From a virus: DNA of 52,615 nt. The DNA lies in the IMG/VR virus record IMGVR_UViG_3300025115_000016, positions 1 through 52,615 of that record. The stretch is one strand, 5' to 3'. Each line of letters starts with the position of its first letter. Within the stretch, counting starts at the first letter, position 1. Both the position numbers and the translations under genes were made by a program. This document shows positions 9,401-47,498 of this stretch, piece by piece. The notes beneath the pieces were generated by a model. That model searched no databases. It saw only the letters and a list, made by a program, of their open reading frames with translations, and was not told the origin of the DNA.

Positions 9401-10213
9401 ATGGCTTCTTTCAAGACCAAGATGGGTTTGGAGATTGAATACTATGAGAGGGGGGAGTTCAAGGGGGTATATAAGTATTGGAAGCAGGCAAGGCCCGGGG
9501 ATCTGTGGCTGCTCTCGGACGACGGATATGTAGTGAAGGCAAGGCAGGTCAAGGAGCTCGTGGAGGTCAGAGGGAAGTCTTCAAGGACGAGGTACAGAGT
9601 CTGGTTCCAGATGGGAAAGAGATACACGCACGGCAGGAGCGTGTACAACTTCATGGAGCACGTTGCCAAGAAGGATACCATCGGATACTCTCCGAGGACA
9701 TGGTGGGAGGCTCTTGCAAGCGCAAACCCGCATCTGGTAAAGATGCTCGCAAGACTGGTTATCTCCAAGAGACTCAACATGAACAAGACCAGGAAGTACA
9801 GCCGGATGGAATACGGATACTTCGACAAAGTTGCTCTTGCGTTCTACGGGGAAGTGTCCGATCAGAAGAATTGGTACAAGATCAGGACGTTCTACAATCA
9901 CGAAGGAGTGCGTATGCTCATACAGGACGAGATCGACAAGATGCTCAAGGAGTTCGACATCACCGCTCAGAAGACTATGGAGCTGTATCAGAAGGCGGAG
10001 AGAGCGGCTGTCGCAAGCGGGAACGGAAAACTCATGCTCGCCGTCGCCCAGGAGTACAGAGACCTGCTCGGAATAAACTTGAGAAGGGCCGGAGCGCAGT
10101 CCAAGTCTCTGCCGCCCGGAACTTCGGACGCTCCGGATGAGAGACTGCTGGAAGCAATCAACAACGCTCCCGAAAGAAAGGAAATACAGGATGCCACCAT
10201 CGTCGAGTCTTAA
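9401..10213 (+). CDS. Putative terminase small subunit
   Basis: The 270-residue protein starts after GGGGAGAG. It lies directly upstream of, and overlaps, the large terminase. The N-terminal half is basic and aromatic (YRVWFQMGKRY, RTWWEAL), suited to DNA contact; the C-terminal part is helical and ends a conserved-looking segment with AVAQEYRDLLG, a pattern common near the end of small terminases, before a disordered tail. It should bind the packaging site and load the large subunit. Assignment rests mainly on position and this C-terminal pattern. Confidence 0.68.
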   Translation: MASFKTKMGLEIEYYERGEFKGVYKYWKQARPGDLWLLSDDGYVVKARQVKELVEVRGKSSRTRYRVWFQMGKRYTHGRSVYNFMEHVAKKDTIGYSPRTWWEALASANPHLVKMLARLVISKRLNMNKTRKYSRMEYGYFDKVALAFYGEVSDQKNWYKIRTFYNHEGVRMLIQDEIDKMLKEFDITAQKTMELYQKAERAAVASGNGKLMLAVAQEYRDLLGINLRRAGAQSKSLPPGTSDAPDERLLEAINNAPERKEIQDATIVES

Positions 10214-11705
10214 AAAGGCTCTCTCTCGGCTCGCTTCAGACGTCGTTCTGTTCGGAAAGACAATTGCTCCTCATACCTTTGAATTCGACTCGCCGCCGAT
10301 ACACTACCAGATCACCGGACTGCTGCTCGACAAGACTCTGAAGCTTCTGAACATCATCGCTCCTCGCGGCATAGCCAAGACCACCCTTGCGACCATTTAT
10401 ATCCTTCATCATCTGTTCTTCGACGATCCGGGCAAGAAGAAGTTCGTCGTCATCATCTCCAAGACTCAGCCTCATGCCAAGAGCATCCTTGCTACCGTCA
10501 AGAACATCCTCGAGTACTCAAGGGGATTCCGCCAGCTCTTCGGCTATCACGGGGAACACAATGCAAAGACTTGGAGAGAAGACACCATTGTGCTCGATAC
10601 GGGAGACGGCATCGTCACCAGAGGTACGGGACAGCCTGTACGCGGACTGAACCTTCTGTCTCAGCGTCCGACGCTCATCATCATCGATGATCCGGAGGAC
10701 GAGAACAACACCAAGACCATCGAGATGATGGACAAGAACCTTACGTGGCTCTTGAACGGAGTCGTTCCTTCGGTCGATGCGATGCGCGGAAGAGTCATCT
10801 GCATCGGAACTCCGCTTCACGAGAAGTGCATCGTCTCCATGCTCTCGCAGATGAGGAACTGGACGACCTTCCACTACGGGAACGACATCGAAGCAGGCGT
10901 CGCCCTGTGGCCGGAAACAAGGTCGCTTGAGTGGCTCACGCTTGAACTCGAAGCAAAGCGCGACGTCGGACTTGAAAGACAGTACTATCAGGAGTACGAA
11001 TGTAAACTCATTCCGGGATCCGATGCGATGTTCAAGCCGGACTACATCCGCTACTACGACGAAGAGATGAAACTCGTCGGGGATCCGATGGAACGATACC
11101 TTGAATTCTCCGGAGTGAGGATTCCCGTCAACGTGTATATGGGGATCGATCCCGCTTCCCGCGTAGAGAAGAGCGCGGACTATTCGGTCATCATGCCCGT
11201 CGCGGTGGACAAAGACTTCAACATCTACGTCCTTCCGTACTTCCGCGCAAGAGTCACTCCGCTGGACCTCGCCAATGCGATCGAAGACTACTACAAGACG
11301 TACATGCCGGCTCTGACACTCATCGAGTCGACAGGGTATCAGGAGATGCTCCGCCAGTACATGCGCACGAAGATGTTCATTCCCGGTCTTGAGATCAAAG
11401 AGAATCCCAGGGACAAGAAGTCCGTCAGGCTTGAGATGCTTCAGCCGTTCTTCGCTCAGGGAAAAGTCTTCATCTCCAAGAGGATGGAAGACCTGCGAAT
11501 GGAACTCATTATGTATCCGAAGTCAAAACACGACGACCTTCTCGACGCACTGTTCTATGCGGTCAAGAGGGCCAGGGCGGCGGCTCACGTGGTCTATGAA
11601 CAGCCGGAGCAACTGCCTGAACATCATCAGGTCCTGATCGAGTACTACAAACAGGAAGAACCCCTGGACGACTTCTTTGCAGCCGACGACGAGGATTTCA
11701 TTTGA
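10191..11705 (+). CDS. terL: Terminase large subunit
   Basis: The 504-residue packaging motor and nuclease has an ATPase domain with a Walker A variant PRGIAKTT (58-65), Walker B LIIIDDPED (D166, D167) and a coupling motif (VICIGTP). The RNase H-fold nuclease follows with acidic residues D320 (MGIDPAS), E379 (LIEST) and H447-DD-LLD452. It translocates DNA into the prohead and cuts it. The start at 10191 is chosen because AGGAAATACAGG precedes it; an in-frame ATG at 10137 has a longer overlap with the small subunit. Length and motif order are normal for the family. Confidence 0.96.
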   Translation: MPPSSSLKKALSRLASDVVLFGKTIAPHTFEFDSPPIHYQITGLLLDKTLKLLNIIAPRGIAKTTLATIYILHHLFFDDPGKKKFVVIISKTQPHAKSILATVKNILEYSRGFRQLFGYHGEHNAKTWREDTIVLDTGDGIVTRGTGQPVRGLNLLSQRPTLIIIDDPEDENNTKTIEMMDKNLTWLLNGVVPSVDAMRGRVICIGTPLHEKCIVSMLSQMRNWTTFHYGNDIEAGVALWPETRSLEWLTLELEAKRDVGLERQYYQEYECKLIPGSDAMFKPDYIRYYDEEMKLVGDPMERYLEFSGVRIPVNVYMGIDPASRVEKSADYSVIMPVAVDKDFNIYVLPYFRARVTPLDLANAIEDYYKTYMPALTLIESTGYQEMLRQYMRTKMFIPGLEIKENPRDKKSVRLEMLQPFFAQGKVFISKRMEDLRMELIMYPKSKHDDLLDALFYAVKRARAAAHVVYEQPEQLPEHHQVLIEYYKQEEPLDDFFAADDEDFI

Positions 11706-16313: not shown

Positions 16314-17699
16314 ATGGCAACCATCACCGAACCTCGGACCCTGAGCAGAGGGCTTGACGATTCCACCGGCTTATCCGGGATTCTATTCACAGATCAGCGG
16401 CAATTCTACGTCAACCCTTTTCAGTATTCCGAACTCTGGCAATCAGCCACACCTTTCATCTCGGCAATGATCGAGCGGGCAAAGGTCATCACAAACCTTC
16501 CCGATCCGCTCTTCAAAATGTTCGAGCATGAAAATCCGTGGCGCAAACAGGAACTTGTCGTCGGAACAGGCGGCACGATTCCTAATGACGACACCGGTCT
16601 TGTCAATACGATCATCTTCGCATCGGCAACCGGACTGTTCTCAACCCAACACGTTTCCCTGAAGAACCTCATGTTCGAAGTATGGGATGCGACCAAGACG
16701 ACCAAGCGCGGCGTCGCTCTCTGTACGGGAGTCGGCTCAACCACAACGATGAACTTCAAGTCGATGAAAGCAGCGACCATCGCAGTGGAAACAGGCGACA
16801 TCTTCGTATGCATCGGCAGCGCGTATGGAACCGGCTCGGAAGCAGGCGAAGCGTGGGCGGACGATCTGAAGGTCGTATGGGGTTCCACGGGCATCCATCG
16901 TACTCCGGTGGAGATCGAAGGAACGCTTCTGGAAGCATCGCTTCGCGGTGCGAACAAGGAGCTTTCCCGTCTGCGTCTTCAGAAGTTGTACGAACACAAG
17001 ATCAACGAAAACCGGCGCCTCATGCGTTCGGTCAACCTGATCGGAACGAACCTGAAGAACAACGAATCGTTCACGGATAAAACCCGTACGGGCGCAACGA
17101 ACGGTTTGGGCGGGACATTCACACCGGCCAACCGCGTACGTACCCCTTACGGTCTGATACCGATGATCGAAGACTACGGGTCTGAAAGCGAAGACGACGA
17201 CACGCAAAATGTGTTCAATCGGAGCGGCGGACTTCAGTGGAATCAGTTCGTTGACGACGCCGAGAAGGTCATGCAGTACCAGAACTACGACGGTATGCGC
17301 GACTTCTTCGTCGGTCCGAAAGCAATGTCCTACTTCTCGAAGATCGATACTCAGGCGACCAACACCCGTCTGAAACTCGGCTTCGACATCAAGATGTCGG
17401 AAATGAGAAACAGCAAGCCCAACAGCCAGGGCTACAACTTCCGGTATCTCGAAACTCCGTTCGGCATCTGGCGCTTGATCCTCGATCCTTCGATGAAGTT
17501 CGAGTACAGCAACTACATGGTTTCTCCCACGTGGAACAACCTGTACTATGCTGTCTATCGCAGCTTCGTCTGGAAGACCGCCATCAAGGACAGCAAGTTC
17601 AATGGCTACGATGGAGTTAAGGACGAATATTTCAACGACACCGGTGTCGGTGCGACTCTCATCAAGTCACACTGCATCTACAAAGTGCCTACGGCATAA
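16314..17699 (+). CDS. Major capsid protein
   Basis: The 461-residue protein follows the scaffold gene by 17 bp, with AAAGGG before the ATG. The sequence has the feel of the HK97-fold SU10/DUF5309 group: an N-terminal arm, SATPFISAMIERAKV, a segment VEIEGTLLEASLRGANKELSRLRLQKLYEHKINENRRLM that would be the spine helix, and a beta-rich axial/periphery C-terminal half (FVGPKAMSYFSKI, YMVSPTWNNLYYAVYRSFV). It forms the icosahedral shell. Assignment rests on length, position and these patterns. Confidence 0.88.
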   Translation: MATITEPRTLSRGLDDSTGLSGILFTDQRQFYVNPFQYSELWQSATPFISAMIERAKVITNLPDPLFKMFEHENPWRKQELVVGTGGTIPNDDTGLVNTIIFASATGLFSTQHVSLKNLMFEVWDATKTTKRGVALCTGVGSTTTMNFKSMKAATIAVETGDIFVCIGSAYGTGSEAGEAWADDLKVVWGSTGIHRTPVEIEGTLLEASLRGANKELSRLRLQKLYEHKINENRRLMRSVNLIGTNLKNNESFTDKTRTGATNGLGGTFTPANRVRTPYGLIPMIEDYGSESEDDDTQNVFNRSGGLQWNQFVDDAEKVMQYQNYDGMRDFFVGPKAMSYFSKIDTQATNTRLKLGFDIKMSEMRNSKPNSQGYNFRYLETPFGIWRLILDPSMKFEYSNYMVSPTWNNLYYAVYRSFVWKTAIKDSKFNGYDGVKDEYFNDTGVGATLIKSHCIYKVPTA

Positions 17700-30140: not shown

Positions 30141-30632
30141 ATGCAGCGTACAACCATAGTCCTCATAATCCTGTGCATAGTATTGGCGCTGTGCACGGGA
30201 TACCTATATCGCAACCAGGGACGCCAAAGTACATCTGTCGTAGGACATGTCATCGAGATACCGGTCGATCTTCCTCCGGTGTACATACAGGGCCCTGCTG
30301 TCCCTTATCCGGTCAAAGACACAACTGATTTTCAAAAGTACTTGGATAGCCTGCTTCGTCAGACTGAGGATCAGAAGGACTCTGCGATCACGAGTTTGTC
30401 TCAGCCATTCAACATCAACGGCGAACAGGGAATCATCAAATACGACATCACTGCGTTTCCTCAACTCAACATGAGAACGATCGAAGCAATCTTCGACGTC
30501 AATCCGTTTAAGGTCGATACGACGTTAATGGACACAACGCTGATCGTAAAGAACAACAGCGATTGGTACGTCTTCACCCTGATCGGTTCGGTAGTGACAT
30601 TCATACTATTGGCAATTACCGGAGGCCTCTAA
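30141..30632 (+). CDS. Two-anchor membrane protein, possible spanin
   Basis: The 163-residue protein has hydrophobic segments at both ends (5-24 and about 142-161) with a 115-residue polar region between, rich in Asp, Thr and Pro. The N-terminal segment contains LALC18, a weak lipobox. A lipoprotein start plus a C-terminal inner-membrane anchor is the plan of a single-protein spanin that fuses inner and outer membranes. The poor lipobox (-1 Leu) makes this uncertain. The 108-bp gap before it (30033-30140) holds only a small CCGGAA/TTCCGG hairpin at 30097-30111. Confidence 0.6.
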   Translation: MQRTTIVLIILCIVLALCTGYLYRNQGRQSTSVVGHVIEIPVDLPPVYIQGPAVPYPVKDTTDFQKYLDSLLRQTEDQKDSAITSLSQPFNINGEQGIIKYDITAFPQLNMRTIEAIFDVNPFKVDTTLMDTTLIVKNNSDWYVFTLIGSVVTFILLAITGGL

Positions 30633-33600
30633 TGCCGAGAGAAGCATATACCATAGGTAGATTTGACAGAGGCATCATCTCTGCGGTCGAAGGAGCAGAC
30701 CTTCCGAAGGAGTCTTCTCCGTGGAGCATCGATCAGGACTGCGAAGGCCCGCTTGGAGTCCTTCGCGGAAGGAACAACGACGAAGCGTTCGTCTCCCATG
30801 CCTCAAGGGGAAACAACGCTCAGGCATACGGATGGATCGTAAGGGAAGACGGAAAGCGCGACCTGATATACTACGACGCTGCAAACGGAGACGTAAAGTA
30901 CATCACCGACTTCCACGGCACAAAAGGATATGGCACCTCATTCAGTCCGGGAACAGGCAAGACAGTCTCGATTGAATCTGTCAACAGAGGCGTGCGCGTG
31001 GCCGTAGGAGACGCAGACGTAAAGTTTATCGGCTACATCGACCACGAGCAGTTCGGCGGGAGCGTTCCGAGCGGACTTCAATGCGTCGATGCAAAACTGT
31101 CCAACCAAACCTCTTTTCCCTACGTTCACAAGATGGTCGGACAAGACAGTCTATATGGATATGCGATTGAATGGCAGGGAAAGAAAGTCTTCAAAGTTAC
31201 TCTCTCAAGCGGAGCGTTCGTTCTCTCTGAACGATCCTTTGGCTCTCTCCAGGGGATTTGCGAAGACGGCACGTATATCTACGTCTACGATGCATCGATA
31301 GGAACATATGGCACTCTCTACAAACTGAATCAGTCTCTTGAGGTGGAAACAAGCTATCCTCTTTCCGGCTTTGGAAGCGTAGGAAATGAATTCGGCGGCA
31401 CTCAGGCTGGAATTGTCACCGACATCGAACTAAGCGCCGACAACTCCACTGTATGGTTTACGGGAGTGCCGAGCATCCCTATCACCGCGGCATCTTCGTG
31501 GAACGAGGCTGGTTCAAAATTCATCTTCTCTCAAGACATATCGTCTCTCAACGACGGTCAGTCAATAGTTCCCGTCGATAGAACGCCGTCGATGGCGCTG
31601 GATGTTTCAGAGGGAAGATTCAAGTCAACCGGAATAGTTCGTCCCGCAATGCGCGGCTTTGTCAAACTTACCACCGGAACCGAGATCGGAATATTCTGCT
31701 CCATCGAACAGAACGTGTACTACGACGGAACGGCTTCGGATGGAAAGCCGTATCTTGGCATATTGATTCTCAACACATCGTTTGTGGTTTCTTCCGGTTT
31801 CAACTCTGCGAATTCAAGGTTCATTGCCGTCGATGCTACAAACATGGTTCCGTCTCCCAGCGCTCCCGACAGTTGGTCTCCGATCAACGCCATCTACTGT
31901 CCGAATGGATCGGGGGAAGACGTTCTTGTCATCGCGGACAACGCAAACCTCTTGACTGAAGAGTGCGCTCTTGCAGACAATAAAAATCTTACGATTGGCG
32001 CAGCCGGCTCGGCGTTCGCCTGGGATGCGTCGGGATGGAAAACAATCTCGGTTGATGACGACAGCGAGGCTATTGACGACGAGCTCACAAATGCATCGAT
32101 CATGTTCAACAAGTACGACGGAGTCTCGGAGCTGAACGAATGCTACGTCTTTCCAGCCTATCAGTACCATGATGATCCCCTTACTGTCAACGTCGATCAG
32201 TCTCCGAGAATGTACAAACTATTCATCGGCGACGACGCATCTTTCTCGGCGGAACCTCATGTATATGTCAAGAGAAGCGATGCATGGATAACAGCGGAGA
32301 TCAACAACAATGAACCGGGAAGTCTTGGCGGGAAAGTTTACTTCTACAAATATGCGTTCATCTACGATGGATACCAATATTCTCCGCTTGAGAATTTCAA
32401 CGAACCGTTTAGGATCATCATTGGCAGCGGAAGTTACTCAACAAGGGTAACGGTTACGCTTAGAGACAATGTATTGAATGCGAGAATTACCGATGTTGCA
32501 ATATTCAGGGCCGAGGCGGCATCAAGCACATCTCTTCGTCCGACGACATCCTATCGTCTCATCAACACGATCAGTCTCAGGCAGAAGTGGGCGTTGAACA
32601 GCAGCGGCAAGTTCTCCGACTTCTATCAGGAGAGCGTCTACGATACGGGAAACTTCGGCGGTGCGTATGAAACAGAGTCCGGCATCGATGCGTCCAATCC
32701 GAACAACTTCATGCGCTATTCAATATCCGCTCAGGGGAACGGATACTTTTTTGTCGGTCAGTGTTTCAACGAAGAGTTCGACGACAACTCTCTTGCAAAC
32801 TTCCTGTTCCGTTCAAAGCAGAACGCTCCCGATACGTACGACTGGTCAACAGACTTCCTCGTGCTTCCGACCAAGCCCGTCGCACTTCACTTCTTCAGAG
32901 GGCTTCTGTACGCCTTTGACGTAGCCAGAATGTACGTGATCGATCCGAACAACTTCCAGATCATCCAGGTAGTCGAAGGGATGGGCGTTGAGGACCAGCG
33001 ATGCGTCGTGTCAAATGAAACGGCGATGTTCTTCGGAAACAGGAACAATGCGTACATGCACGACGGAAAGACTCCGACGATCATCTCCACGCCGGTGAAT
33101 GTCTCTTCCGATTCGACCATAGGTGGAACGGCAATCATTTCGTATAGGGCTACATTTGTAAATTCATACGAAATGTCCATTGCTATTCACTCAAAGAGAA
33201 ACCTTGTCTTGTTCTGTTTTTCGAAGACGGGAGCATCAACGTATATCCTTGGATTTCACTATCCGACCGGCTCATGGTACTTCTGGCAATTTGCCTCAAG
33301 TATCGATGGAACGATCCTGCCAAACGGTACCGGTAAAAAGATGGTTCTTGTCGATGGATATGGACAGGCATATCTTTCGACCGCCGGTGGCCTTCTCAGC
33401 ATCAACTCTGCTGCTACCTATAAAGCATGTACATGGTACAGCCACATCATCGACGGCGGGACTGTCAACGCCATCAAGAAGTTCTACATGATCATCCTGG
33501 ACGGTACGGCAGGAACGACCAAGCAGGTGGCATACAACGGAAGCACGACGTTCTCCACAGACTTCACTTCCGGAACATATCTTGATACGACGACCAAGAG

Positions 33601-33694
33601 GTCTTCGATGTGGATAAAACTTGTCCTTACCACGACGGATACTATTCGCGGGCTTACCGTACTATACAGAAAGATGATTGGAGAGCGGGCATGA
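30632..33694 (+). CDS. Tail nozzle / tail tubular protein B-like
   Basis: The 1020-residue protein starts at ATG 30632 in a TAATG overlap after GGAGG; a start at 30563 lies inside the previous gene. The N-terminus (IGRFDRGIISAVEGADLPKESSPWSIDQDCEGPLGVLRGR) has the 'offset, pass through, load the rest from zero' plan of podovirus nozzle proteins. Repeated beta blades fill 80-950, with a fibronectin-like segment RVTVTLRDNVLNARITDVAIFRAE at about 610-640. It would form the distal tube below the adaptor. The assignment rests on size, beta content and the N-terminal pattern. Confidence 0.72.
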   Translation: MPREAYTIGRFDRGIISAVEGADLPKESSPWSIDQDCEGPLGVLRGRNNDEAFVSHASRGNNAQAYGWIVREDGKRDLIYYDAANGDVKYITDFHGTKGYGTSFSPGTGKTVSIESVNRGVRVAVGDADVKFIGYIDHEQFGGSVPSGLQCVDAKLSNQTSFPYVHKMVGQDSLYGYAIEWQGKKVFKVTLSSGAFVLSERSFGSLQGICEDGTYIYVYDASIGTYGTLYKLNQSLEVETSYPLSGFGSVGNEFGGTQAGIVTDIELSADNSTVWFTGVPSIPITAASSWNEAGSKFIFSQDISSLNDGQSIVPVDRTPSMALDVSEGRFKSTGIVRPAMRGFVKLTTGTEIGIFCSIEQNVYYDGTASDGKPYLGILILNTSFVVSSGFNSANSRFIAVDATNMVPSPSAPDSWSPINAIYCPNGSGEDVLVIADNANLLTEECALADNKNLTIGAAGSAFAWDASGWKTISVDDDSEAIDDELTNASIMFNKYDGVSELNECYVFPAYQYHDDPLTVNVDQSPRMYKLFIGDDASFSAEPHVYVKRSDAWITAEINNNEPGSLGGKVYFYKYAFIYDGYQYSPLENFNEPFRIIIGSGSYSTRVTVTLRDNVLNARITDVAIFRAEAASSTSLRPTTSYRLINTISLRQKWALNSSGKFSDFYQESVYDTGNFGGAYETESGIDASNPNNFMRYSISAQGNGYFFVGQCFNEEFDDNSLANFLFRSKQNAPDTYDWSTDFLVLPTKPVALHFFRGLLYAFDVARMYVIDPNNFQIIQVVEGMGVEDQRCVVSNETAMFFGNRNNAYMHDGKTPTIISTPVNVSSDSTIGGTAIISYRATFVNSYEMSIAIHSKRNLVLFCFSKTGASTYILGFHYPTGSWYFWQFASSIDGTILPNGTGKKMVLVDGYGQAYLSTAGGLLSINSAATYKACTWYSHIIDGGTVNAIKKFYMIILDGTAGTTKQVAYNGSTTFSTDFTSGTYLDTTTKRSSMWIKLVLTTTDTIRGLTVLYRKMIGERA

Positions 33695-33948: not shown

Positions 33949-34782
33949 ATGGATCCACTTACTATCGGACTGATCATGGGCGGGGGAAGCATCCTTGGCA
34001 AGATGTTCAGCAAGACCCCCGACTTCCAGCGTCTGGACAGAGCAAACTACATGCTCGGTTCAGACTACGAATACGATCCCGAAACCGACTTCGGACAATC
34101 TACTGCTGCCGACAACATGTCCAGATACGGCATGGGCGGCGCGTACAACTCCTACATCAAGGGAGAAACAGAAGCCCTTCGCAAGTCTGAGATGAACCGC
34201 ATACTCAAGATGGCTACCAGCATGGTCCCGGGAATGGCTTCCTTGAGGGGCGGAGTGTCTGCCCAGGGAGCAGGGGGAAGCGTCTCGAACGTCATTGCAA
34301 GACAGCAAAGAGAGCAGATGCAGGGACGCGCCCTTGACGCGGCAGACTCGATGTACGAGAAGTCTGTCGGAGGCATCAACATGGCTGAACTGAACATGCT
34401 CTCGGACAGCGAGAAGATGCGATATAGCTCTTCGCAAGACTACATGAAGGCGGTAGGAATGGGAACAGAGGCGAAGAACCAAGCCCTCAGATTCAACGTC
34501 GGCAACCGCTTTGAACGAGACCGGCTCAACATGTCGAATGCCCTTAGCATTGAACAGTTCAACCGCACCGGACAAATGAAGGCAGATGAAATGCGCTTCG
34601 GCAAATGGAACAGCATCTTCGACGACCTTGGAGGCATGGGAGGCACGATGCTCGGACATTGGGCGGGAAGCTATGATTTTAATGGAGAAAGCGACCTGGA
34701 CTATTTTAAGAAACCAATAACTATTGACCAAAGGAAAGAAGTTGATTGGAATAAATTTGGATTTGGTGGAAGGAAAAGGTGA
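33949..34782 (+). CDS. Putative internal virion protein
   Basis: The 277-residue protein has a glycine-rich hydrophobic start (LTIGLIMGGGSILGKMF), then long helices rich in Met, Ala, Gln and Ser (KMATSMVPGMASLRGG, VSNVIARQQREQMQGRALDAADSM), a composition typical of podovirus internal or ejection proteins that enter the cell with DNA. It is followed by another helical protein and the giant RNA-polymerase-like protein, as in ejection-protein clusters. Confidence 0.65.
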   Translation: MDPLTIGLIMGGGSILGKMFSKTPDFQRLDRANYMLGSDYEYDPETDFGQSTAADNMSRYGMGGAYNSYIKGETEALRKSEMNRILKMATSMVPGMASLRGGVSAQGAGGSVSNVIARQQREQMQGRALDAADSMYEKSVGGINMAELNMLSDSEKMRYSSSQDYMKAVGMGTEAKNQALRFNVGNRFERDRLNMSNALSIEQFNRTGQMKADEMRFGKWNSIFDDLGGMGGTMLGHWAGSYDFNGESDLDYFKKPITIDQRKEVDWNKFGFGGRKR

Positions 34783-34787
34783 CTAAT

Positions 34788-35810
34788 ATGGGAGCACTTT
34801 CAGAGAACTTCGCACGAGCATTCTCTCAGTCCTTTGCACAACGTAAGGAAGACGAGAAGCTCGAAGAGTCTGTTCGTATGCAGGAGATCAGAGAGAAGAA
34901 CGAACAGGACTATCGCAACGAGCAGATCAATCTATCCCTGCAACAGCTTCGAATGACCGAACAGAACAACATCCAGAACAACAACCGGATGATGCTCTCT
35001 GAGGCCAATCGTCAGTTTGTTACAACCGGGGAGAATGATCCCATTCTAAGATTTGGAGGACTCAAACCTCAAAACTCCGAGTATCTAAATGCTGCCGGAC
35101 CGCTGGCAAAACTGGATACAGGAAATGTCGCTGTCGATAGATCGGTATATGAGAAAATGGCTTTTGCGTATATCGAACAAATGAGGCAGGATTCCCGTGG
35201 AAGCGAAGTCTCAAAGATGCAGGAAAATCTCATGTCTCTTGAGAATGCGGCCAACAGCATGTCTCCGACATTCACATCGAAGGGTTCTCTTCCGACAATA
35301 GCGCTTCGCAAGTCGGTTACGAATCAGCAAAGACTTGTTATGGGCGATGCCGGCAGATGGGCTGCCAACTACGGCATTGCTGTCTATGACGATCCGAACC
35401 GTCCTATGACAATCGAGGGTACGAAGCAGGTGTCTCAAGAGGTTCTCGATCCTAACTATCTTGAGAATGTTGCAAAAATAATCGAGCGTATGCGTGGAGA
35501 GGGACTTCGCGCCAACAACCGTCAGCTTGGAATAAATGTGGACGAATACATCAGACCTGTCGAACGCTCATGGTTTGACAACGTGATGAAACACTACAAC
35601 ACGATCGATGCGGAAAAAGTCAGCCCTGCCGTTCGCGCGTTATTCAATCGTCTCCAAAGAACAAACATGATGGAGGCAAACGCACAGCAGATGCAGAGGA
35701 TGAAAGAAGTCTCGAGTATCCTATCAATGATGAAGGCTGCCGGAGATGTATCCAGCGAGTACAAAGAACCGGCTAAATCAATGGTCTCACCATATATCGG
35801 CGGACAATAA
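34788..35810 (+). CDS. Putative internal virion protein, coiled coil
   Basis: The 340-residue protein starts at ATG 34788, chosen for its AGGTG site; a GTG at 34779 overlaps the preceding stop. The first 80 residues are charged and Gln-rich coiled coil; the remainder is helical with Asn/Met-rich loops. It resembles the middle-sized ejection proteins that form the trans-envelope channel with a giant partner encoded next to them. It has no enzyme motifs. Confidence 0.62.
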   Translation: MGALSENFARAFSQSFAQRKEDEKLEESVRMQEIREKNEQDYRNEQINLSLQQLRMTEQNNIQNNNRMMLSEANRQFVTTGENDPILRFGGLKPQNSEYLNAAGPLAKLDTGNVAVDRSVYEKMAFAYIEQMRQDSRGSEVSKMQENLMSLENAANSMSPTFTSKGSLPTIALRKSVTNQQRLVMGDAGRWAANYGIAVYDDPNRPMTIEGTKQVSQEVLDPNYLENVAKIIERMRGEGLRANNRQLGINVDEYIRPVERSWFDNVMKHYNTIDAEKVSPAVRALFNRLQRTNMMEANAQQMQRMKEVSSILSMMKAAGDVSSEYKEPAKSMVSPYIGGQ

Positions 35811-35814
35811 TCTT

Positions 35815-38800
35815 ATGGCAAAACTTCAACTGCTATACGGGACGCAGGCCCCGCAAGAAACCTCAACGGAGCGTCCTTCATGGGACGCTTCGTCGTTTAT
35901 CGGACAGTTCATGGCCGGATACGTGGAAGGACTCACGACATTCGACGTATTGGACAACTACGACATCGTAAAGAACAACGCCGACACCGAGGCAGAATAC
36001 ATCGCCAGAAGTCTCGGAAGCGTTCTTGGGTTCATCGGATTCCTGCCGTTTCCCGGAACAGGCACGTTCACACGACTCGGCTTTTCCACTGCCGCCAAGG
36101 CAATGAAGCTCGTCGGACAGGCAGACAAAGCAAAGAGCCTTGCCGCAGAAGCCAGGGCTGTCAAGATGACCATGACCTCTATCCCGATGATTACCGGAAG
36201 AGTGATGAGCGGAGGAGTAATGAGGATGCTTGAGTCCGGAGCCGCCAAGTCTGCGCTTCAGTTCGGAGAGCAGGCGATAGGAAGAAGTCTTTCTGCCGGA
36301 GCGAAAGCAAGAATATCCTCTTATACCGAAACGGGTTTGTTTATGGGTTTTGCCTCAGCCGCAGCTGCTCGCCCAATGAATCCTATGGACATCTTCAGCG
36401 AAGGATGGGACGAGCGATGGGAAGCAGCGAAGTACGGCATGGCATACGGCGTAGGACAGCAGGCGATCGCATCGTTCTTCTCTCCGAAACTCATGGAGAA
36501 ACTTGGAGCGAAGAACTTCAAGGAGCTCATGCAGAAGGAGCCGGACAAAGCCGAATTCATGCTCAAGTCTCTTCGCGGAGTTTCTACCGGCCTTGTGATG
36601 GGCGGATATGCGGCAGCCGAAGGGTTCCCAAACGAACTTGTGCTGTACGAAACTCTTGTCAACGGTGTCTTCGGATACAGAGAGCTTCCCTGGTACAACA
36701 AGCAGGCGATGAAACTGATGAACAAGCACCTTCGTGAAGAGAAGGTTGCGGACTATCTGCTCATGCAGAAGACTCCCGAGAAGTACCTTGAGTCTGTCGG
36801 AGAGACCGATCTTCCGCCCGAGGTCATCAACTCGTTCTCAATAGCCGCCACCGCTCACTTTGGGAACACCGTCAAAACCGCATCTGCCTACATCGAAGCG
36901 ATGAAAAAGACCGAAGCCGCACGCAGAGGCGTGGACGTGGAATCTCTCGGAGACGAATTCATATCTGAAATGATACAGTCCGGAGACATCACCAAGGCGA
37001 AGGCATGGCAATCCCTTCTTGAGTACGATCAGATCATGAAGATGGAGACCGACAAGGCGGTCAACACATTCGAAGAGGTTCACAAGAGAAAGCCCAGCGA
37101 AGAGGAGATGCACGACATCTCGGATGCTGCCAAAGACAATGCGGACGCCATCAGCGTCGATCTCTGGTACAACAACGACGACGCGATCAGGATCATCAAG
37201 GACGTCGCCAAGAGGGTGCACTACGAACAGGAGATGACTCAGCAGACTCCCGATCAGCTTCTCAAGGTGGCTTCCTCGATGAGAGAGGCGGGCATCTCGA
37301 TGCAGGCGGCCGAATTCGTCACGACGCTCAGCGACGTCCTCGGCAAGGAACATCGCGGCTTTGAGACCTTGCGCACGATCAACGAGATCATTCGTACCAA
37401 CAAGCGCGACGGACAAAAGAACTACATTCCCGTCAGGGATCAACTTACCGGAAAGTTCGGCATCACGTTGACCAAAGAGCAGGACAATGCGTTCAGGCAT
37501 CTGTGGGCCATGTACTCCAACAGCAAGACCAGAAAGATGCTCAAGGTCAACCTGTCCGACTACGACGTCTTCAGGCCGACAGAGCACCTTGCAGACGGCA
37601 CGTTCAAGGCGGAGATCGACAACGTGACTCCGATCGAAAAGATGACCGGTCTCGAAGCAATGTATCTGAAGACAGCGGTGGATAAAAAGACGGACGTTCC
37701 GATCCACTCTTCGAAGGTCAACGCTTCCCGGCTGATGGTGGAGTCCTTCAAGAAGAACTGGTGGTATTTCTCCGGCAAGAAGGACAATCACCACATGGTC
37801 TTCTTCGACATGACAGAGGCCAAATTTGAGCCAGGAGACTTCAATTTAGCCAAGGAGGCCTTAGCCATAGATGCGGTCTTAAAACCGCTCCAAGACCCCT
37901 CTAAAGGCGATTATGTGCCATTTTTAGAGCAGTATGCGAAGGACAAAGCCCTTTTTGTGGCTGAAGCCCTGAGAGACGTCCCTGAAGGCAAGGCAATAGG
38001 CGAAAAGATAGCCGCAGAGAAGGCATACGACGCCCTGTACAGCTTCAACGCTGTCCAGTGGAAGAAGTTCAACCATGCGGAGACCCTTGCTGAACTGTTT
38101 GCAGACAGGGATGCGTTCTCGATTACCGATGTGACGAAGTTCAACAAGCGTACTCAGTTGATGTTCGACGTCGGCATTCCGATGGATCCGAGCGTCGTCG
38201 GAAGGGAGAAGCTCAGCGCCAGGGTGGCAGAGTGGACCCCGGAGTCTCTCGGTCTGTTCAAGACTGAGTTCGGTCGAATGTTCGGAGGAAAGAACCCCTT
38301 GCAGTACGACGGCGTTGCGTGGGTGCGAAGAGAGGCCGCCAAGGCATTCGGCTCGTACTCCGGAAACGAAGAGGGGGGATTTCACAAGATCGCTGCCGTT
38401 CACTCCGACGACCTTGGAGGACTCTTAGGCAAGCAAGGCTTCCACGTAATGACTGCGAAGGAAGAGTCGATGCTCGATAAGTCCGGCATCAGCGACGACA
38501 TCGTGTTCTTTGAGAGCGCCACAAAACTCAAAGGGAAGCGTCCTGTAACCAAACTGACCTTATCCAAAGAAGGCATCACTCACGACGCTACTGAAGTGAT
38601 CAACCCGGAAGACCCGCTCGGCAAGAGGACAGGCGGCTCGTTCGAGATTCCCGTAGAGTCGATACGTCTGAACCTGTCGGCAGCGGAAGATCCGACGATC
38701 AAGCCTGCTCACATCGCCAAACCGCTCTTGAACCACTTTGAAGAGTCTCCCGAACTCTCAAGGCTCATCATGGAGAAGTACGTGCTTCCGGGATTTGAAG

Positions 38801-41800
38801 GGGATGCGTTGCCGGAGAACTCTCCTGCTGAAGCGATTGCAAAGACCAACACCGGAGTCTTCAGGGCGGGCAAAGATCAGCCAATGACCAAAGAGCTCGG
38901 CGTTGACATCGACAAGGTTCCGCTGAAGGACCTGTTTGAAGTGATGAAGGACATGCCGAACGACGCACGTCTGAACACTCTTGCAAGGAAGTTGATGCGC
39001 TATCAGTTTGAACGTGGAGACGAGATCGAGTCGGATGAGATGGGCGAGTGGAAGCAGATCGAAGACCTCATTTCAGACAGGAGTAACATTGCCAAGAAGA
39101 TGTCGATGATGGGCGAACTCGATCCTGCGTTTTTGGCTCAGGCAGACATCCATCGGTATATGGAGCAAGCCCTGTACAAGTATGCTTTGGACAGAGTGCA
39201 TCGTCCGAAGGCGCCGAACTCATTCAAGGCAAAGCTCGGCTATCTGTCTCCGATTGAACTGATGGAATACGAGTCTTCAGGCAAGCAGTTTAAGCCCGGA
39301 GACATTCTCCTTGAGGGCGGTCTGAAGAAGACGCCCATTGAACTTCCTGCTGAATTCAGAGGGCTGTTCGATGGAAAAGAAAAAACGACGCTTGGAGAGA
39401 TGTGGGAGAGGTTGCAGGCAGAGAGCAATCAGTCTCTTCAGGACTTCTTCGACAATGCGGTGGCGGTGCGCGTTCCTTTGTCCGATCTGTCCGGAGCAAG
39501 GGCGATGAAGATGGCGGGATTTACCAAGGGAAAGGGATTCAGAACCTACGTTCATCCGTACGACATGCAGTACATGGACGGAGCGGACCTTGACGGAGAT
39601 TCGATGTTCATGTACTTCGGTCTTGAGCGTCCCCTGGTCGATCATCTCAAGAAGACCGATGTGAAGCACCGGTTCACTCATTGGAGCGACAAGTCGGGAA
39701 GAGACCTCTACGATGCGTACAGCGTGCCGCCTGAACTCGTGGACTCTCCCTTGCTGGAGAAGCGCTTCACGATGGACAAAGCGGGCAACGAGGCGCTGCT
39801 GGCCGGCGATCAGGCTCAGTACGACTTCCTGAAGAACCCTGCATCGATGTTTTCTCCGTATGCAAGGAACCTCGTGAACAGGATCGCCACTATGGGCAAA
39901 GGCAACCTCGGGCCCGGACTCGTCGCTGCTCTTCGCGGAAAGCAGTTGTACAAGTACGCCAACGGAAAGCCGATCGTCACTCAGATCGAGGACGTAGGAG
40001 AGGTCACTCTCGTGCCGAAGGGACTCAGAGCGCAGAGGATGACTCAGGCTCAGACGGTGAACCTTTCGGCAGACGCAGCGGACGGACATGCAATGGCGGA
40101 CGTAAACCACATCAGGGCGGCCAACGTGCTGTCTCCGTTCAGAGTATTCGTTGACGGGAAAGAGCTCTCTCCCAAAGAGTACGTGCCGCTGTTCTCCAAG
40201 TCGAAGACCTTCTACATCAAAGGCAGAGAGGTCAAGTCTCCCTATCTGAACAGGCTTCCTTTGATCAAGACGCTGGCCGAGTTCGACGGCGCTCTTCGCA
40301 ACAGGGACTTCGAAGGCAACCTGAGAAACCTTCAGGACATCATGGCGAAGATCAGGAACGTCTCCACGAGGGTAGAGGACATCAACTTCGACAACACATG
40401 GTACAATACGTCGAAACTCCTTGCCACGCTGGATTACAGACCGCATCCCGCATCGTTCATGAATTACCTGTCGAGAAAGGTCGTCTTTGAGTCGCTGGAT
40501 ACGTTCTTCAAGTCGTTCAAGCGCGTACTGGGAGCGGAGAAAGAGCGCGCGGTCGGAGAATTCATCATGTCGCTGATGGGACGCAGGGGGCTGTCGTTCA
40601 CGAAGTCGAAGATAACAGATACCAATGAGTGGAAGATCCTCGAAAGAGAACTCGACGTATACCACAAGAACGATCTCAAGAGCGCCAAGGGATACACCGG
40701 CTCGAAGGCATATCTGGACGACTTTATCAACAGCGAAGACTTCCGCTTGAGCAAGTTGTGGGAGATCTCGAAGAACTTTCCTTCTGCGGACAGGAAGTCC
40801 ACGACGGACAGGACTCCGTTTTTGATGAAGGAGCTCGCCGAGCTCTCGCTGTACGCAGACAACGATCTGGTGAAGTACAACATGGAGAAGGTCGTCGCTC
40901 ACTATACGAATGAAGGCGGCAAGCCGGGATGGCTGACATTCGACCGATTCAACAACTTCGATCAGAATGTCAAAGACCTCGAAGCCACGATGGAAGCCAA
41001 GGGCATCAACAAGTACGAAGTGTCCTATCTGCCAAGAACGGAAGGAGAGCAGGTCATTGAAGCCAGATCGCTGTTTGTGAAGGACCTTCACGACGTCGCA
41101 TCGCTGAAGATGATGAACGAGGTGCTCTCGAAGTACGTTGCGGACAGCAATCCGAAGGATGTCAGGGAATTCCTTGACAAAGACCTTCATCCGTTTCTCC
41201 GGACGATCTCCACATACAGGAGCCAGCTCATCGAGTCTCAGCAGGACGTCTTCTCTTCCTACGGTCCGAACAGGGCGGGCAAGAGCAAGGCTTATCAGGC
41301 AAAACTCAAGGAGATTAGAGCGTACAGAGCCAGACTCTCCGACGACAAACGCCCGGTCTTCGACGCTCAGTTTCTCTCTTCGTTCCAGCCCGATCCGATC
41401 GGAGACGAGGCAACAGAGAGATATAACGCTCTGTATTCAAAGGAGTATGCCAGGGCGAATGCGAAGACGCTCGCAATGTACGCGGGCAAGAAATTGCCGA
41501 TGGAGAAACTCAAGGAGATCGTTTCAAAGAACACTCTGAACAGGTGGCTGTATGCAAGCAAGTTCGCTCAGACTCCGATGTTCGCAGGCGTCGTTTCGGA
41601 CGGCATGCTCAGGAAGTACTACGACGGATTCTCTGAGGTCTCGAAGATCATCGAGACTCCGCTCGACCAACTGAACATAAGAACGGTGAAGGACGACCTG
41701 AACATCGATACCGGGCGCATGCTTCCTGCGTATCTTGCAGCCGATCCTGAGGTGCAGATCATGGAGACCAAGCAGCCGACCAAAACGAGGGTGAGTAAGA

Positions 41801-44800
41801 TGGCCGGCCCCTTGAAGAAACTCGTTGCAGATGCATCCGAAGGTCTCGACAAGAAAGGACGCCTGAAGAACCTTCAGGAGGACGCGGAGTACTCTCAGAT
41901 CACCAAAGACCTGACAGACATCTTCCTTCGTCACAAGGACGTTGCAGACCAGATCGCGTGGATATTCCCGACCATCGTTGCCGAGCGCACCGGAGGAAAG
42001 GTGCACCGAACGATGGACCTTGCCACAAAGAGGGATTGGCAGGACTTCATCAGAATGTTCAAGACCGCGGACGGACGGATGAAGCAGGATGTCGGAGAGC
42101 CGATCGCAGTGAAGAATTCGTGGTTCTTCAAGTTCTTCTCCCGCGTGGCGAAGGAGAACAGGATGAAGTCCGTTGATAAGGACGGCAATCTGAACATCTT
42201 TACCCTTGAGTATCCGGCCCACGTAAACACTCCCGACGGGAAGGTCGATCTGAACGTGCGCAGGATCGTCGGAGCGCTTGAGATAGCAGGCATCCACGGA
42301 GAGGCTCTTACTGCGACCAAGAACGCCATCGACGGAATGCTCAAGGCAACATTGGCGGACAGGTTCGACCTCTACGAGAAACTCAACAAGATCGACGGCC
42401 TTGGACTGAAGATGTTTGAAGCGGTTGTCGGCGTCATCGAAGGACCGCTTGGCGATCCGCAGGTCACTCCGAAGGGATGGGAGCTGTACCAGAGGAACGG
42501 CAGAGAGGCAATGCAGACGATCGCCTCGATGAAGAAGAAGTATGCCAATGGCGTACTGGTTCAGGACGCCAAAGGGAAGACCATAAAGATGAGCATCGAC
42601 AACATCGTGATGGAGATGAAGAACAAAGTGGGTGAGTATCTCGACGACATCTACCGGAGACTTGAAGCGATGGAAGACGACGCCGTGCTCTCTGTGTACT
42701 ATACCGGAGAGACATACGGAAAAGTGAAGTTTCCGATGCTCAACGTCGACGCTCTCTCGGACAAGGCGATGGGCATCGAGGCAGAGAAAGGTCTTCTGAT
42801 GACTCCATCGAAGAAGTTCAGTTCAATTGTAGCGGTCAACGACATGCTGAAGTCTCACAAGATAAAGTACTATGTGACGAAGACTCAGGATGTGATCTTT
42901 GCCGACGAGATGAGCAAGGCGAAGAACAGGGCGATCGAGGAAGCGCTCTCCAAGGGAAACGAGGACATCAGGCAGGAAGAGAAGTTCTTCCACGAACTCA
43001 GCGAACCGATGAGGCACAAGTTCATCGACAAGATGACCTTGGATGGTTACGTGATGGGATTCCCCTTCACGGCAGACCTTCAGCCCTTAAAGCAGATGTG
43101 GTTTCCACACATGCACCTTTCGGAGAAGGAGGTCACCGCGCAATTGCAGGAGCGCGTCGCCAAACTCGTGCCGAAGTTGCCGGAGTCTCAGGTGAAGGAG
43201 CTCTCCCTTGAGACGATCAGGATCCTTCTTGGCTACAAGGACCAACTGTACTCCCAGAACGAAGGACAGAACATCTTCAATCGCATTAACGGAAGAGCCG
43301 ACGTGTTGACTACCTTGCGCTATGAGAACAAGCATCTCAAGGGAAGAGACCATTCGTTCTTCGGTCCGCTGGACGGATGGGACAGAAGTCCCCTGGCTCT
43401 GCACAGCGCGTACGAGAAGATTGCCAAGGAGAACGCAGACATGTTCTTCGCCGTCGTTGCAAAGAACATACTCCGCAGGCAGACAGAGAAGCAGGTTTAT
43501 GGAGACAACACTCTCCACATTGCAAGGTTCACCGAACGCTACTTCAGGCAGGCTCTCGGATATGCCGACACTATTCCGCAGGAGTGGCTCGCTCCCGGCG
43601 AAGATGCGTATAAATACGGGATGAAGAACAACATGTGGAAGTTTCACTCCGATCAGTACTGGATGAACAAGATTCAAGAGGTCGGCAACACGTACTTTGG
43701 AGGCAAGATCACCGGAGACTTCAAATCGATCGACAACATCGCCAACGCCCTTGAGTTCGACGATCCGAAGACCAAGCAGGCGTGGATCAACGAAGGCAAG
43801 AGAGTCCTTGCCGAAAGGAAGCTCTCGTGGTTCTCGCAGATGGAGGCGAAGTATTCGCTGCTGTCCTTGCTAACCTCCACAAAGACCTTCACGACCAACG
43901 TGGCGTCGGCAGGCATCATGACGCTCATCAACACCTCCACGGATGACTTCAGGAGAGCGTTCTCGTTAAAGGCGATGCAGGACGAGGCGGGAAGCCACAA
44001 CATCAAGTCTTCGGGAGACATCGACAAGATGGTTGCGGCAGGAGGCGGTCTGGAAGGAATGTTCCAGCAGGAGATCAACATGCACGGAGCCTTGGGATAC
44101 GTCGGTAAAGAGACGGTGGGAAGGCTTCTGACTGAGATCAAGCGCAAGGGCGTCGATGCAGACGTCAAGGGAATACTCGTCAAGCAGGGAGTCTTCAGCC
44201 GGCTCGTGGATGCCGGCGCGTACATGATGAAGAAGTCGGAGATGATCGCCAGAAAGCACTCGTATCTTGCTCACTACATGAACGCCAGAAGGAGTTTCAG
44301 GATGCAGGGCTTCGAGCTCGAGTACGACGATCCGTGGATTACCAAGATAGCCAGAGACGGAGTTGCTGCAAGCCAGTACCTGTACTCCAATGCAAACCGT
44401 CCCGCGTTCATGGGTTCCCTGATAGGGAAAGTGTTCCATCGGTTCCAACTATTTGCCTACAACTCGGTCGAGTTCCGTCTGAATGCGATGGAAAGAGCCA
44501 GACAGATAGGAGTTCTTCCCGGAAGCGACGACTACCGGAAGTTCGAGAGGATGATGGCTGCGGACATGTTCATGTTCGGCATGGCGTCCGTCCTTCCGTT
44601 CTCGATATTCAACACCATGTTGCCTCCGCCATACAACTATCTGACGGACTATACTCAGTTCTTCTTCGGAGGAAGCATTGAAGACAGGCAGAACGCGTTC
44701 TATACGGGCTTGCCGTATCCCCTGAACATCACTCAGCCGTTGACTCCGGCAAGCGCCAGGATCTTCGTCTCGCTTCTTGGGTATGCCTACGACAAGGATG

Positions 44801-45087
44801 CGGAGAAACTCACCAAGGGCGTCGTATCGCTTGCTCCGGGACATCGTTTGATACGGGACGTCTATCGTTCGTACGATCAAATATCCAAAGGAAGGAATCC
44901 CGCGATCATCATCGACAACATGACGGGCATTCCTTTGGTGAACTCGGGAAGCGTCATCAAGAAGCTCAACAAGGAGGGCGGGATCGATCTCTACCTGAAG
45001 CGGTATGAACACGGGCCTTATTTAGAAGACATGAAAAAAAACGAGGAAGAGATCGACGAATTTCTCCGTCAATATTCTTCCCCGTAA
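35815..45087 (+). CDS. Giant virion protein with beta-prime-like RNA polymerase core
   Basis: The 3090-residue protein starts at ATG 35815 (the in-frame ATG at 35746 lies inside the previous gene). The N-terminal 300 residues are hydrophobic/glycine-rich. Catalytic core: R1219-x-P1221, S1226-G1227, GKGFR 1239-1243, H1247-P1248, then GADLDGDSM with D1258, D1260 and D1262. This order matches the NADFDGD barrel of RNA polymerase beta-prime and of QDE-1/crAss-phage single-chain enzymes. SATKLKGKRP (901-910) is a candidate lysine-bearing barrel partner. The C-terminal 500 residues include membrane-prone helices (AAGIMTL..., MFMFGMASVLPFSIFNTML). It is likely packaged and injected to transcribe early genes. 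A purely structural role is the alternative. Confidence 0.82.
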   Translation: MAKLQLLYGTQAPQETSTERPSWDASSFIGQFMAGYVEGLTTFDVLDNYDIVKNNADTEAEYIARSLGSVLGFIGFLPFPGTGTFTRLGFSTAAKAMKLVGQADKAKSLAAEARAVKMTMTSIPMITGRVMSGGVMRMLESGAAKSALQFGEQAIGRSLSAGAKARISSYTETGLFMGFASAAAARPMNPMDIFSEGWDERWEAAKYGMAYGVGQQAIASFFSPKLMEKLGAKNFKELMQKEPDKAEFMLKSLRGVSTGLVMGGYAAAEGFPNELVLYETLVNGVFGYRELPWYNKQAMKLMNKHLREEKVADYLLMQKTPEKYLESVGETDLPPEVINSFSIAATAHFGNTVKTASAYIEAMKKTEAARRGVDVESLGDEFISEMIQSGDITKAKAWQSLLEYDQIMKMETDKAVNTFEEVHKRKPSEEEMHDISDAAKDNADAISVDLWYNNDDAIRIIKDVAKRVHYEQEMTQQTPDQLLKVASSMREAGISMQAAEFVTTLSDVLGKEHRGFETLRTINEIIRTNKRDGQKNYIPVRDQLTGKFGITLTKEQDNAFRHLWAMYSNSKTRKMLKVNLSDYDVFRPTEHLADGTFKAEIDNVTPIEKMTGLEAMYLKTAVDKKTDVPIHSSKVNASRLMVESFKKNWWYFSGKKDNHHMVFFDMTEAKFEPGDFNLAKEALAIDAVLKPLQDPSKGDYVPFLEQYAKDKALFVAEALRDVPEGKAIGEKIAAEKAYDALYSFNAVQWKKFNHAETLAELFADRDAFSITDVTKFNKRTQLMFDVGIPMDPSVVGREKLSARVAEWTPESLGLFKTEFGRMFGGKNPLQYDGVAWVRREAAKAFGSYSGNEEGGFHKIAAVHSDDLGGLLGKQGFHVMTAKEESMLDKSGISDDIVFFESATKLKGKRPVTKLTLSKEGITHDATEVINPEDPLGKRTGGSFEIPVESIRLNLSAAEDPTIKPAHIAKPLLNHFEESPELSRLIMEKYVLPGFEGDALPENSPAEAIAKTNTGVFRAGKDQPMTKELGVDIDKVPLKDLFEVMKDMPNDARLNTLARKLMRYQFERGDEIESDEMGEWKQIEDLISDRSNIAKKMSMMGELDPAFLAQADIHRYMEQALYKYALDRVHRPKAPNSFKAKLGYLSPIELMEYESSGKQFKPGDILLEGGLKKTPIELPAEFRGLFDGKEKTTLGEMWERLQAESNQSLQDFFDNAVAVRVPLSDLSGARAMKMAGFTKGKGFRTYVHPYDMQYMDGADLDGDSMFMYFGLERPLVDHLKKTDVKHRFTHWSDKSGRDLYDAYSVPPELVDSPLLEKRFTMDKAGNEALLAGDQAQYDFLKNPASMFSPYARNLVNRIATMGKGNLGPGLVAALRGKQLYKYANGKPIVTQIEDVGEVTLVPKGLRAQRMTQAQTVNLSADAADGHAMADVNHIRAANVLSPFRVFVDGKELSPKEYVPLFSKSKTFYIKGREVKSPYLNRLPLIKTLAEFDGALRNRDFEGNLRNLQDIMAKIRNVSTRVEDINFDNTWYNTSKLLATLDYRPHPASFMNYLSRKVVFESLDTFFKSFKRVLGAEKERAVGEFIMSLMGRRGLSFTKSKITDTNEWKILERELDVYHKNDLKSAKGYTGSKAYLDDFINSEDFRLSKLWEISKNFPSADRKSTTDRTPFLMKELAELSLYADNDLVKYNMEKVVAHYTNEGGKPGWLTFDRFNNFDQNVKDLEATMEAKGINKYEVSYLPRTEGEQVIEARSLFVKDLHDVASLKMMNEVLSKYVADSNPKDVREFLDKDLHPFLRTISTYRSQLIESQQDVFSSYGPNRAGKSKAYQAKLKEIRAYRARLSDDKRPVFDAQFLSSFQPDPIGDEATERYNALYSKEYARANAKTLAMYAGKKLPMEKLKEIVSKNTLNRWLYASKFAQTPMFAGVVSDGMLRKYYDGFSEVSKIIETPLDQLNIRTVKDDLNIDTGRMLPAYLAADPEVQIMETKQPTKTRVSKMAGPLKKLVADASEGLDKKGRLKNLQEDAEYSQITKDLTDIFLRHKDVADQIAWIFPTIVAERTGGKVHRTMDLATKRDWQDFIRMFKTADGRMKQDVGEPIAVKNSWFFKFFSRVAKENRMKSVDKDGNLNIFTLEYPAHVNTPDGKVDLNVRRIVGALEIAGIHGEALTATKNAIDGMLKATLADRFDLYEKLNKIDGLGLKMFEAVVGVIEGPLGDPQVTPKGWELYQRNGREAMQTIASMKKKYANGVLVQDAKGKTIKMSIDNIVMEMKNKVGEYLDDIYRRLEAMEDDAVLSVYYTGETYGKVKFPMLNVDALSDKAMGIEAEKGLLMTPSKKFSSIVAVNDMLKSHKIKYYVTKTQDVIFADEMSKAKNRAIEEALSKGNEDIRQEEKFFHELSEPMRHKFIDKMTLDGYVMGFPFTADLQPLKQMWFPHMHLSEKEVTAQLQERVAKLVPKLPESQVKELSLETIRILLGYKDQLYSQNEGQNIFNRINGRADVLTTLRYENKHLKGRDHSFFGPLDGWDRSPLALHSAYEKIAKENADMFFAVVAKNILRRQTEKQVYGDNTLHIARFTERYFRQALGYADTIPQEWLAPGEDAYKYGMKNNMWKFHSDQYWMNKIQEVGNTYFGGKITGDFKSIDNIANALEFDDPKTKQAWINEGKRVLAERKLSWFSQMEAKYSLLSLLTSTKTFTTNVASAGIMTLINTSTDDFRRAFSLKAMQDEAGSHNIKSSGDIDKMVAAGGGLEGMFQQEINMHGALGYVGKETVGRLLTEIKRKGVDADVKGILVKQGVFSRLVDAGAYMMKKSEMIARKHSYLAHYMNARRSFRMQGFELEYDDPWITKIARDGVAASQYLYSNANRPAFMGSLIGKVFHRFQLFAYNSVEFRLNAMERARQIGVLPGSDDYRKFERMMAADMFMFGMASVLPFSIFNTMLPPPYNYLTDYTQFFFGGSIEDRQNAFYTGLPYPLNITQPLTPASARIFVSLLGYAYDKDAEKLTKGVVSLAPGHRLIRDVYRSYDQISKGRNPAIIIDNMTGIPLVNSGSVIKKLNKEGGIDLYLKRYEHGPYLEDMKKNEEEIDEFLRQYSSP

Positions 45088-47224: not shown

Positions 47225-47245
47225 GATGAGTGCTCCTTTTAGATG

Positions 47246-47274
47246 AATAAAAACACCCGCCCTTTCGAGCGGGT
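47246..47274 (-). terminator. Intrinsic terminator
   Basis: ACCCGC/GCGGGT (47255-47260 and 47269-47274) with an 8-nt loop, followed on the - strand by GTTTTTATT, a classic form. It ends the transcript of the gene at 47283-47498 just before the ParB-like gene. Confidence 0.88.
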
Positions 47275-47282
47275 ATATGTGA

Positions 47283-47498
47283 TTACCTTCTTCGTGAACA
47301 GTAGGTACTGTAGAATTTCTCTCCAAGTTCTCTTGCCTGCTTTATGTTTCGTGCGTAGATGGTTTTGACGAGTATCATTGTGGCGTGGTATCGTTCCTCT
47401 TTGTACCCTGTGTACATCGTGCAGTTGTGTATTCTCCACTGTCGCGCGGTGTTCGGATACGGAGGAAAGTAGATTTCGAGTGTATATTCCTTTTTCAT
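47283..47498 (-). CDS. Small basic hypothetical protein
   Basis: The 71-residue protein starts in an ATGA overlap with the GHKL-like gene. It is rich in Tyr, Arg and Thr, with a strand-helix pattern (EYTLEIYFPPYP, HATMILVKTIYARNIKQARELGEKFYSTY) similar in shape to small phage proteins that sit on nucleic acid. It is followed at once by a terminator. Confidence 0.65.
   Translation of the reverse strand: MKKEYTLEIYFPPYPNTARQWRIHNCTMYTGYKEERYHATMILVKTIYARNIKQARELGEKFYSTYCSRRR

Follow-up and report, generated by a model that had tools for sequence, protein, structure and literature searches.

A modelled fold, profile similarity and invariant residues together predict that the middle third of a giant protein encoded in the viral DNA analysed here (the window, meaning this whole stretch of 52,615 nt) is a single-chain RNA polymerase. 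The best explanation, which we consider probable with good confidence, is that the giant protein is a two-barrel DNA-dependent RNA polymerase that is packaged in the virion and ejected to start early transcription, in a podovirus with a P22-like portal.

The open reading frame (35746..45087, +) belongs to a family of ORFs of about 3,000 aa. It encodes 3,113 aa, or 3,090 aa if the start is the next Met, 35815 (an offset of 23); either start is possible. An earlier note on this DNA gave a length of 3,090 residues and numbered the catalytic Asp as 1258, 1260 and 1262, both of which fit the second Met; counted from the first Met, as here, they are D1281, D1283 and D1285. The same note listed the elements R-x-P, SG, GKGFR, HP and GADLDGDSM in that order, and they are seen exactly so between residues 1242 and 1287: RVP at 1242-1244, SG at 1249-1250, GKGF at 1262-1265, HP at 1270-1271 and GADLDGDSM at 1279-1287. 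The active-site motif, R1242-x-P ... GAD1281-L-D1283-G-D1285-SM, thus occupies 39469..39606 (+). It is well above the chance level, and some 100 giant homologous ORFs repeat its order and spacing. The rest of the window held no second candidate for a polymerase motif. The giant protein itself gave no match in Pfam, PHROGs (hmmscan), PDB sequences or INPHARED (tblastn).

Relatives were first sought in viral contigs with a degenerate DNA pattern for HP-x7-G-x-D-x-D-G-D, which brought out two kinds of protein, one of 850-1,100 aa (phrog_4291, considered below) and the other comprising giant ORFs of about 2,800-3,400 aa. The latter align with the window protein across the N-terminal, core and C-terminal regions (blastp). 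In viral contigs, a core profile of the giant ORFs matched 202 relatives, of which 80 were kept, and a profile of the C-terminal domain matched 412. Searches with the window protein alone, with terminase patterns or with a two-sequence alignment gave no matches. The nearest relative, designated L203, has 35% identity over 2,192 residues and lies on a contig in a Ca. Peregrinibacteria bin.

The core alignment contains 71 diverse sequences that share about 20% identity with the window protein. Even so diverse a set has R1242, P1244, G1258, F1259, G1279, A1280, D1281, D1283, D1285 and D1443 in 71/71 sequences. In the region read as the first barrel, three Lys are equally invariant: K881 (38386..38388, +; 69/69), K896 (38431..38433, +; 70/70) and K927 (38524..38526, +; 70/70). 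The motif elements listed beforehand fare differently, in that R-x-P and the Asp triad are conserved whereas HP and GKGFR in their full form are not: H is found in 67/71 and P in 41/71, and GKGFR shrinks to two glycine positions.

The 71 core sequences were fetched with patterns containing DLDGD or RxP..SG. Because this carries a risk of circularity, conservation was retested on relatives fetched by the C-terminal domain only. This sample comprises 80 ORFs, of which 63 have the core, the 17 others being fragments of 442-1,657 aa. All three Asp are kept in each of the 56 ORFs that span the motif, and in 54 of the ORFs fetched in this way R-x-P and DxDxD stand at exactly equal spacing; L233 and L254 keep DxDxD at slightly different spacing. 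The earlier note had staked its proposal on conservation of the three Asp in homologues, and they are indeed kept in all that cover the site, while their neighbours vary, as in GADIDID, GMDLDID, GADNDGD, GADKDSD, GADADGD and GGMDQDGD. One subgroup (L171, L151, L164 and L173) has GGADKDSD, with N in place of H; it has lost the Gly and Leu of DLDGD but keeps the three Asp, and in this resembles the DFDID of crAss polymerases.

A structure for residues 640-1700, the polymerase core as modelled (37663..40845, +), was predicted by AlphaFold2 with templates off and with an alignment that contained this family only and no known RNA polymerase. The model has a pTM of 0.77. Structure prediction had been suggested in the earlier note as a check, and the outcome agrees with it: the best PDB match by Foldseek (E 2.2e-10, probability 1.00) is 6vr4_A, a virion RNA polymerase from the crAss-like phage phi14:2, and the next 49 PDB matches listed are all RNA polymerases or their subunits, although individually weak (E 5e-3 or worse). 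The global TM between 6VR4 and the model is 0.39, with a high rmsd. Against a viral library, the best matches are mostly unnamed phage proteins, giant proteins of crAss-like phages and viral RNA polymerases, and A7XX94, a protein of the Thermus phage P23-45, gives a marginal match to the window core (E 0.02). The Foldseek match and the strand pattern suggest that the modelled core contains two double-psi barrels, the strand-rich region at residues 822-976 (38209..38673, +) being read as the first, DPBB-A, and that at residues 1159-1340 (39220..39765, +) as the second, DPBB-B.

Profile-profile comparison by hhalign with gp66 of phi14:2 and 15 further crAss-like polymerases (16 in total) leads to the same place. 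The two profiles are colinear over 462 columns, covering window residues of about 762-1291, with a score of 70.3 and E 1.3e-6; the reversed profile scored 21.1, and 60 column-shuffles scored at most 24.9. Residues 740-1060 alone, which hold the first-barrel region, score 50.6 (E 2.9e-5, controls below 20), and the second-barrel region aligns ungapped and in register over 62 columns with a score of 39 (controls below 18). No profile similarity to the crAss polymerases was found beyond the two barrels, and the region 3' of the motif, where the bridge helix and trigger loop would be expected, gave no alignment to them (score 24, in the wrong place). In gp66 the corresponding motifs are YRIP and DFDID (RIP..SDFDID), and 39 residues separate the Arg from the first Asp, the same number as in the window protein. 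K1027 and K1065 of gp66, invariant in 14/14 crAss sequences with a residue there, pair with K896 and K927, which makes the latter two candidate catalytic residues. The similarity is visible at the level of families: hhalign against gp66 as a single sequence gave no match, and neither single-sequence comparisons nor hmmsearch of PDB sequences with the family profile found anything. With a gapless PSSM the active site of gp66 is the best-scoring place, yet not significantly so against shuffles. The idea that the protein is a distant relative of the crAss-type polymerase is thus upheld by profile homology over both barrel regions.

The polymerase core is flanked on both sides by conserved sequence. 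A conserved N-terminal region, residues 52-340 (35899..36765, +), was defined by blastp to relatives and contains one hydrophobic segment (residues 86-108, by hydropathy). At the other end is the conserved all-helical C-terminal domain, residues 2440-3090 (43063..45015, +), which is the one shared with the 412 relatives; for its low-confidence model no solved relative was found. A search of the giant protein with Pfam gave no match to a tape-measure or peptidase family. It is worth adding that some relatives carry inserted domains. By eye, an ASCH-like domain is present in L203 (residues about 1085-1180) and in L093 (1295-1391), inserted at different places and 42% identical to one in a giant protein of the crAss-like phage cr272_1, and a cpYpsA (SLOG) domain is inserted in two other relatives. 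The window protein has neither insert.

The window begins and ends with a direct repeat of 131 bases (1-131 and 52485-52615, one mismatch), and the contig therefore closes on itself at about 52,484 bases, within a primase-helicase gene. The phage genome is probably complete, though recorded as 'linear'. It encodes a terminase large subunit (phrog_38; 10137..11705, +), a P22-like portal protein (phrog_156, PF16510; 12537..14783, +) and an SU10-type major capsid protein (16314..17699, +), and also carries a ParB gene. A P22-like portal is found in 35/43 related records (34/42 virus records and the L203 bin), and the records that have it are mostly of 35-55 kb. The lineage to which the phage belongs has P22-like portals and genomes of about 45-55 kb, and the portal suggests a short-tailed phage. 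Crassvirales genomes are about 90-105 kb. The portal and terminase of phi14:2 belong to phrog_6547 and phrog_6681, different families from those of the window, so that by these markers the phage is not one of the Crassvirales; membership of that group was rejected on this ground and on genome size (about 52.5 kb).

Some further features of the genome may be recorded here. A ParB-like protein of 535 aa (45719-47326, -) shares 35% identity with one whose gene adjoins the giant gene of L203. Two tail-type proteins of 2,009 and 340 aa (21008-27037 and 27034-28056) start with signal-peptide-like sequences, which are unusual in phage structural proteins; these end in YSQ and, as far as the sequence goes, are reminiscent of Bacteroidota secreted proteins. 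Shine-Dalgarno-like GGAG, GAGG or AGGA is present upstream of 32/44 gene starts checked in the window, and frequent sites of this kind are not typical of Bacteroidota hosts. The Bacteroidota-like host put forward in the earlier note is thus at most tentative: the two signal peptides would fit it, but not these sites or the Ca. Peregrinibacteria bin of L203. A search of the window for a repeated early promoter motif recovered mainly ribosome-binding sites.

Within the rightward late block the giant gene comes last, following a conserved tail protein of about 1,000 aa (30563..33694, +), which also precedes the giant gene in relatives, and two small genes. The first of these (277 aa; 33949..34782, +) has a glycine-rich N-terminus and is a candidate small ejection protein by position and by the look of its sequence, standing in what we take to be the place of T7 gp14 or N4 gp52. 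The second (343 aa; 34779..35810, +), immediately upstream of the giant gene, is a candidate ejection protein by position and size, and L203 has a gene of 348 aa at the equivalent place. Podoviruses keep their ejection proteins at the place of these two small genes. The arrangement recalls the cargo genes of a crassvirus, whose packaged proteins include two channel proteins and others associated with RNA polymerase (PMC10172136). It is also that of the N4 cassette gp50-51-52, whose products, including the virion RNA polymerase gp50, are ejected together (PMC12633501). Gene position and architecture therefore point to the virion as the probable location of the giant protein. It would be packed in the capsid head and, at the start of infection, threaded in unfolded form together with the small ejection proteins through the portal and the short tail, to refold inside the cell. 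There the metal site formed by D1281, D1283 and D1285 in the second barrel, together with the conserved Lys of the first, could polymerise RNA on a DNA template, transcribing from early phage promoters while the genome is still entering.

The alternative that survives best, though we regard it as unlikely, is a two-barrel polymerase that is encoded in the late block but made and used in the infected cell rather than carried in the virion, the remaining chain serving as a scaffold or regulator. A non-virion two-barrel polymerase is also present in P23-45 (PMC10770324). What speaks against this is the place of the gene at the end of the structural block, right behind the candidate ejection proteins, and the presence of some 2,000 conserved residues on top of the polymerase core, with a hydrophobic segment in the N-terminal part and a helical C-terminus; moreover, its relatives are virion cargo, both phi14:2 gp66 and crAss001 gp47/49/50 (the latter in PMC10172136). 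Loss of catalysis, leaving a polymerase-derived fold with only a structural or DNA-binding role in an ejection protein, is considerably less probable still. Sequence divergence is extreme and the trigger-loop elements are not recognised, as such a history might produce, but the three Asp, R1242, P1244 and the three Lys stay invariant across dozens of sequences that are about 20% identical and in which other positions of the motif do change. We give the same low weight to a two-barrel enzyme with a different function, for example a DNA polymerase resembling PolD, a primase or a polymerase that copies RNA. Two-barrel enzymes do include PolD and QDE-1 (PMC10770324), and phrog_4291, labelled 'RNA-dependent RNA polymerase' in PHROGs, shares the DPBB-B motif; however, phrog_4291 aligns over 25 columns only, the window encodes a primase/helicase in a gene of its own, and a DNA-dependent virion RNA polymerase is the nearest homologue in both fold and profile. 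That an unrelated structural protein shows the motif by chance, as the lack of a polymerase match in the Pfam, PHROGs and PDB sequence searches might have suggested, is refuted by the fold and profile results, with the invariant residues also against it, and is now scarcely credible. A virion-packaged, ejected polymerase is accordingly the reading we retain.

Injected RNA polymerases of cellular type are already known from crAss-like phages, from jumbo phages and from a Thermus siphophage. Fusion of a virion RNA polymerase into a giant protein is likewise known, from P23-45 (PMC10770324), from crAss-like phages and, in an enzyme of unrelated fold, from N4. For the giant family itself, no description was found in the open-licence literature, and no members were found in the phage genome records searched, in Pfam or in PHROGs. 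To the known cases it adds a family that numbers, in viral contigs, at least 200 relatives by the core and 412 by the C-terminal domain; active sites such as DIDID, DLDGD and DKDSD are intermediate and connect the crAss type with the DxDGD type. If the enzyme is active, these phages, whose genomes are half as large as those of crAss phages, would start transcription without relying on the host polymerase. On balance we lean towards the view that these phages form a widespread, undescribed P22-portal lineage of about 50 kb with an injected two-barrel RNA polymerase inside a giant ejection protein, a major sister branch of the crAss virion polymerases, and that the strategy is common beyond crAss-like and jumbo phages.

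Several known systems resemble the giant protein in part. Proteins of the phrog_4291 type (850-1,100 aa; L003, L008, L025 and many others) are very common in phages. The 900-980 aa proteins of phrog_4291 have the same succession R-x-P ... HP ... GADFDGD as the window protein, and the two families align over 25 columns round the motif (hhalign P 57%), but phrog_4291 has HTH domains at both ends and lacks the giant flanks. An assignment of the giant protein to this family was rejected, there being no full-length homology over about 900 aa and no PHROG found by hmmscan. For the phrog_4291 proteins themselves we regard a DNA template as no less likely than the RNA-dependent activity of the PHROG label.

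The virion RNA polymerase of N4 is of the T7-like single-subunit type, with an unrelated fold. An N4-type enzyme was rejected for the giant protein, which gave no PF00940 match and has a two-barrel predicted fold; PF00940 (T7-like RNA polymerase) gave no match in 27 records either, an absence that carries little weight since control genomes were also silent. The likeness to gp50 of N4 (Schitoviridae) is one of architecture: about 3,000-3,500 residues, a polymerase in mid-chain, the last place in a three-gene ejection cassette, and a podovirus (PMC12633501). In P23-45, gp96 is a tail-tape-fused virion RNA polymerase, a two-barrel enzyme within a giant virion protein, as proposed for the window, and with a DxDGD motif; P23-45, however, is a long-tailed siphovirus, and its polymerase is N-terminal in a tape measure with a metallopeptidase (PMC10770324).

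The closest system is that of phi14:2, whose gp66 (PDB 6VR4) shares with its Crassvirales homologues, and with the fold predicted for the window protein, a single-chain two-barrel architecture. The spacing from R-x-P to DxDxD is identical and two invariant Lys are aligned. Both phages are podoviruses, and gp66 is annotated as a virion protein from MS/MS. They differ in genome size (about 52 kb against about 100 kb for Crassvirales) and in the active site, DLDGD in the window and DFDID in gp66, with DIDID in some window relatives; and the window protein, unlike the crAss polymerases, has a C-terminal domain of its own.
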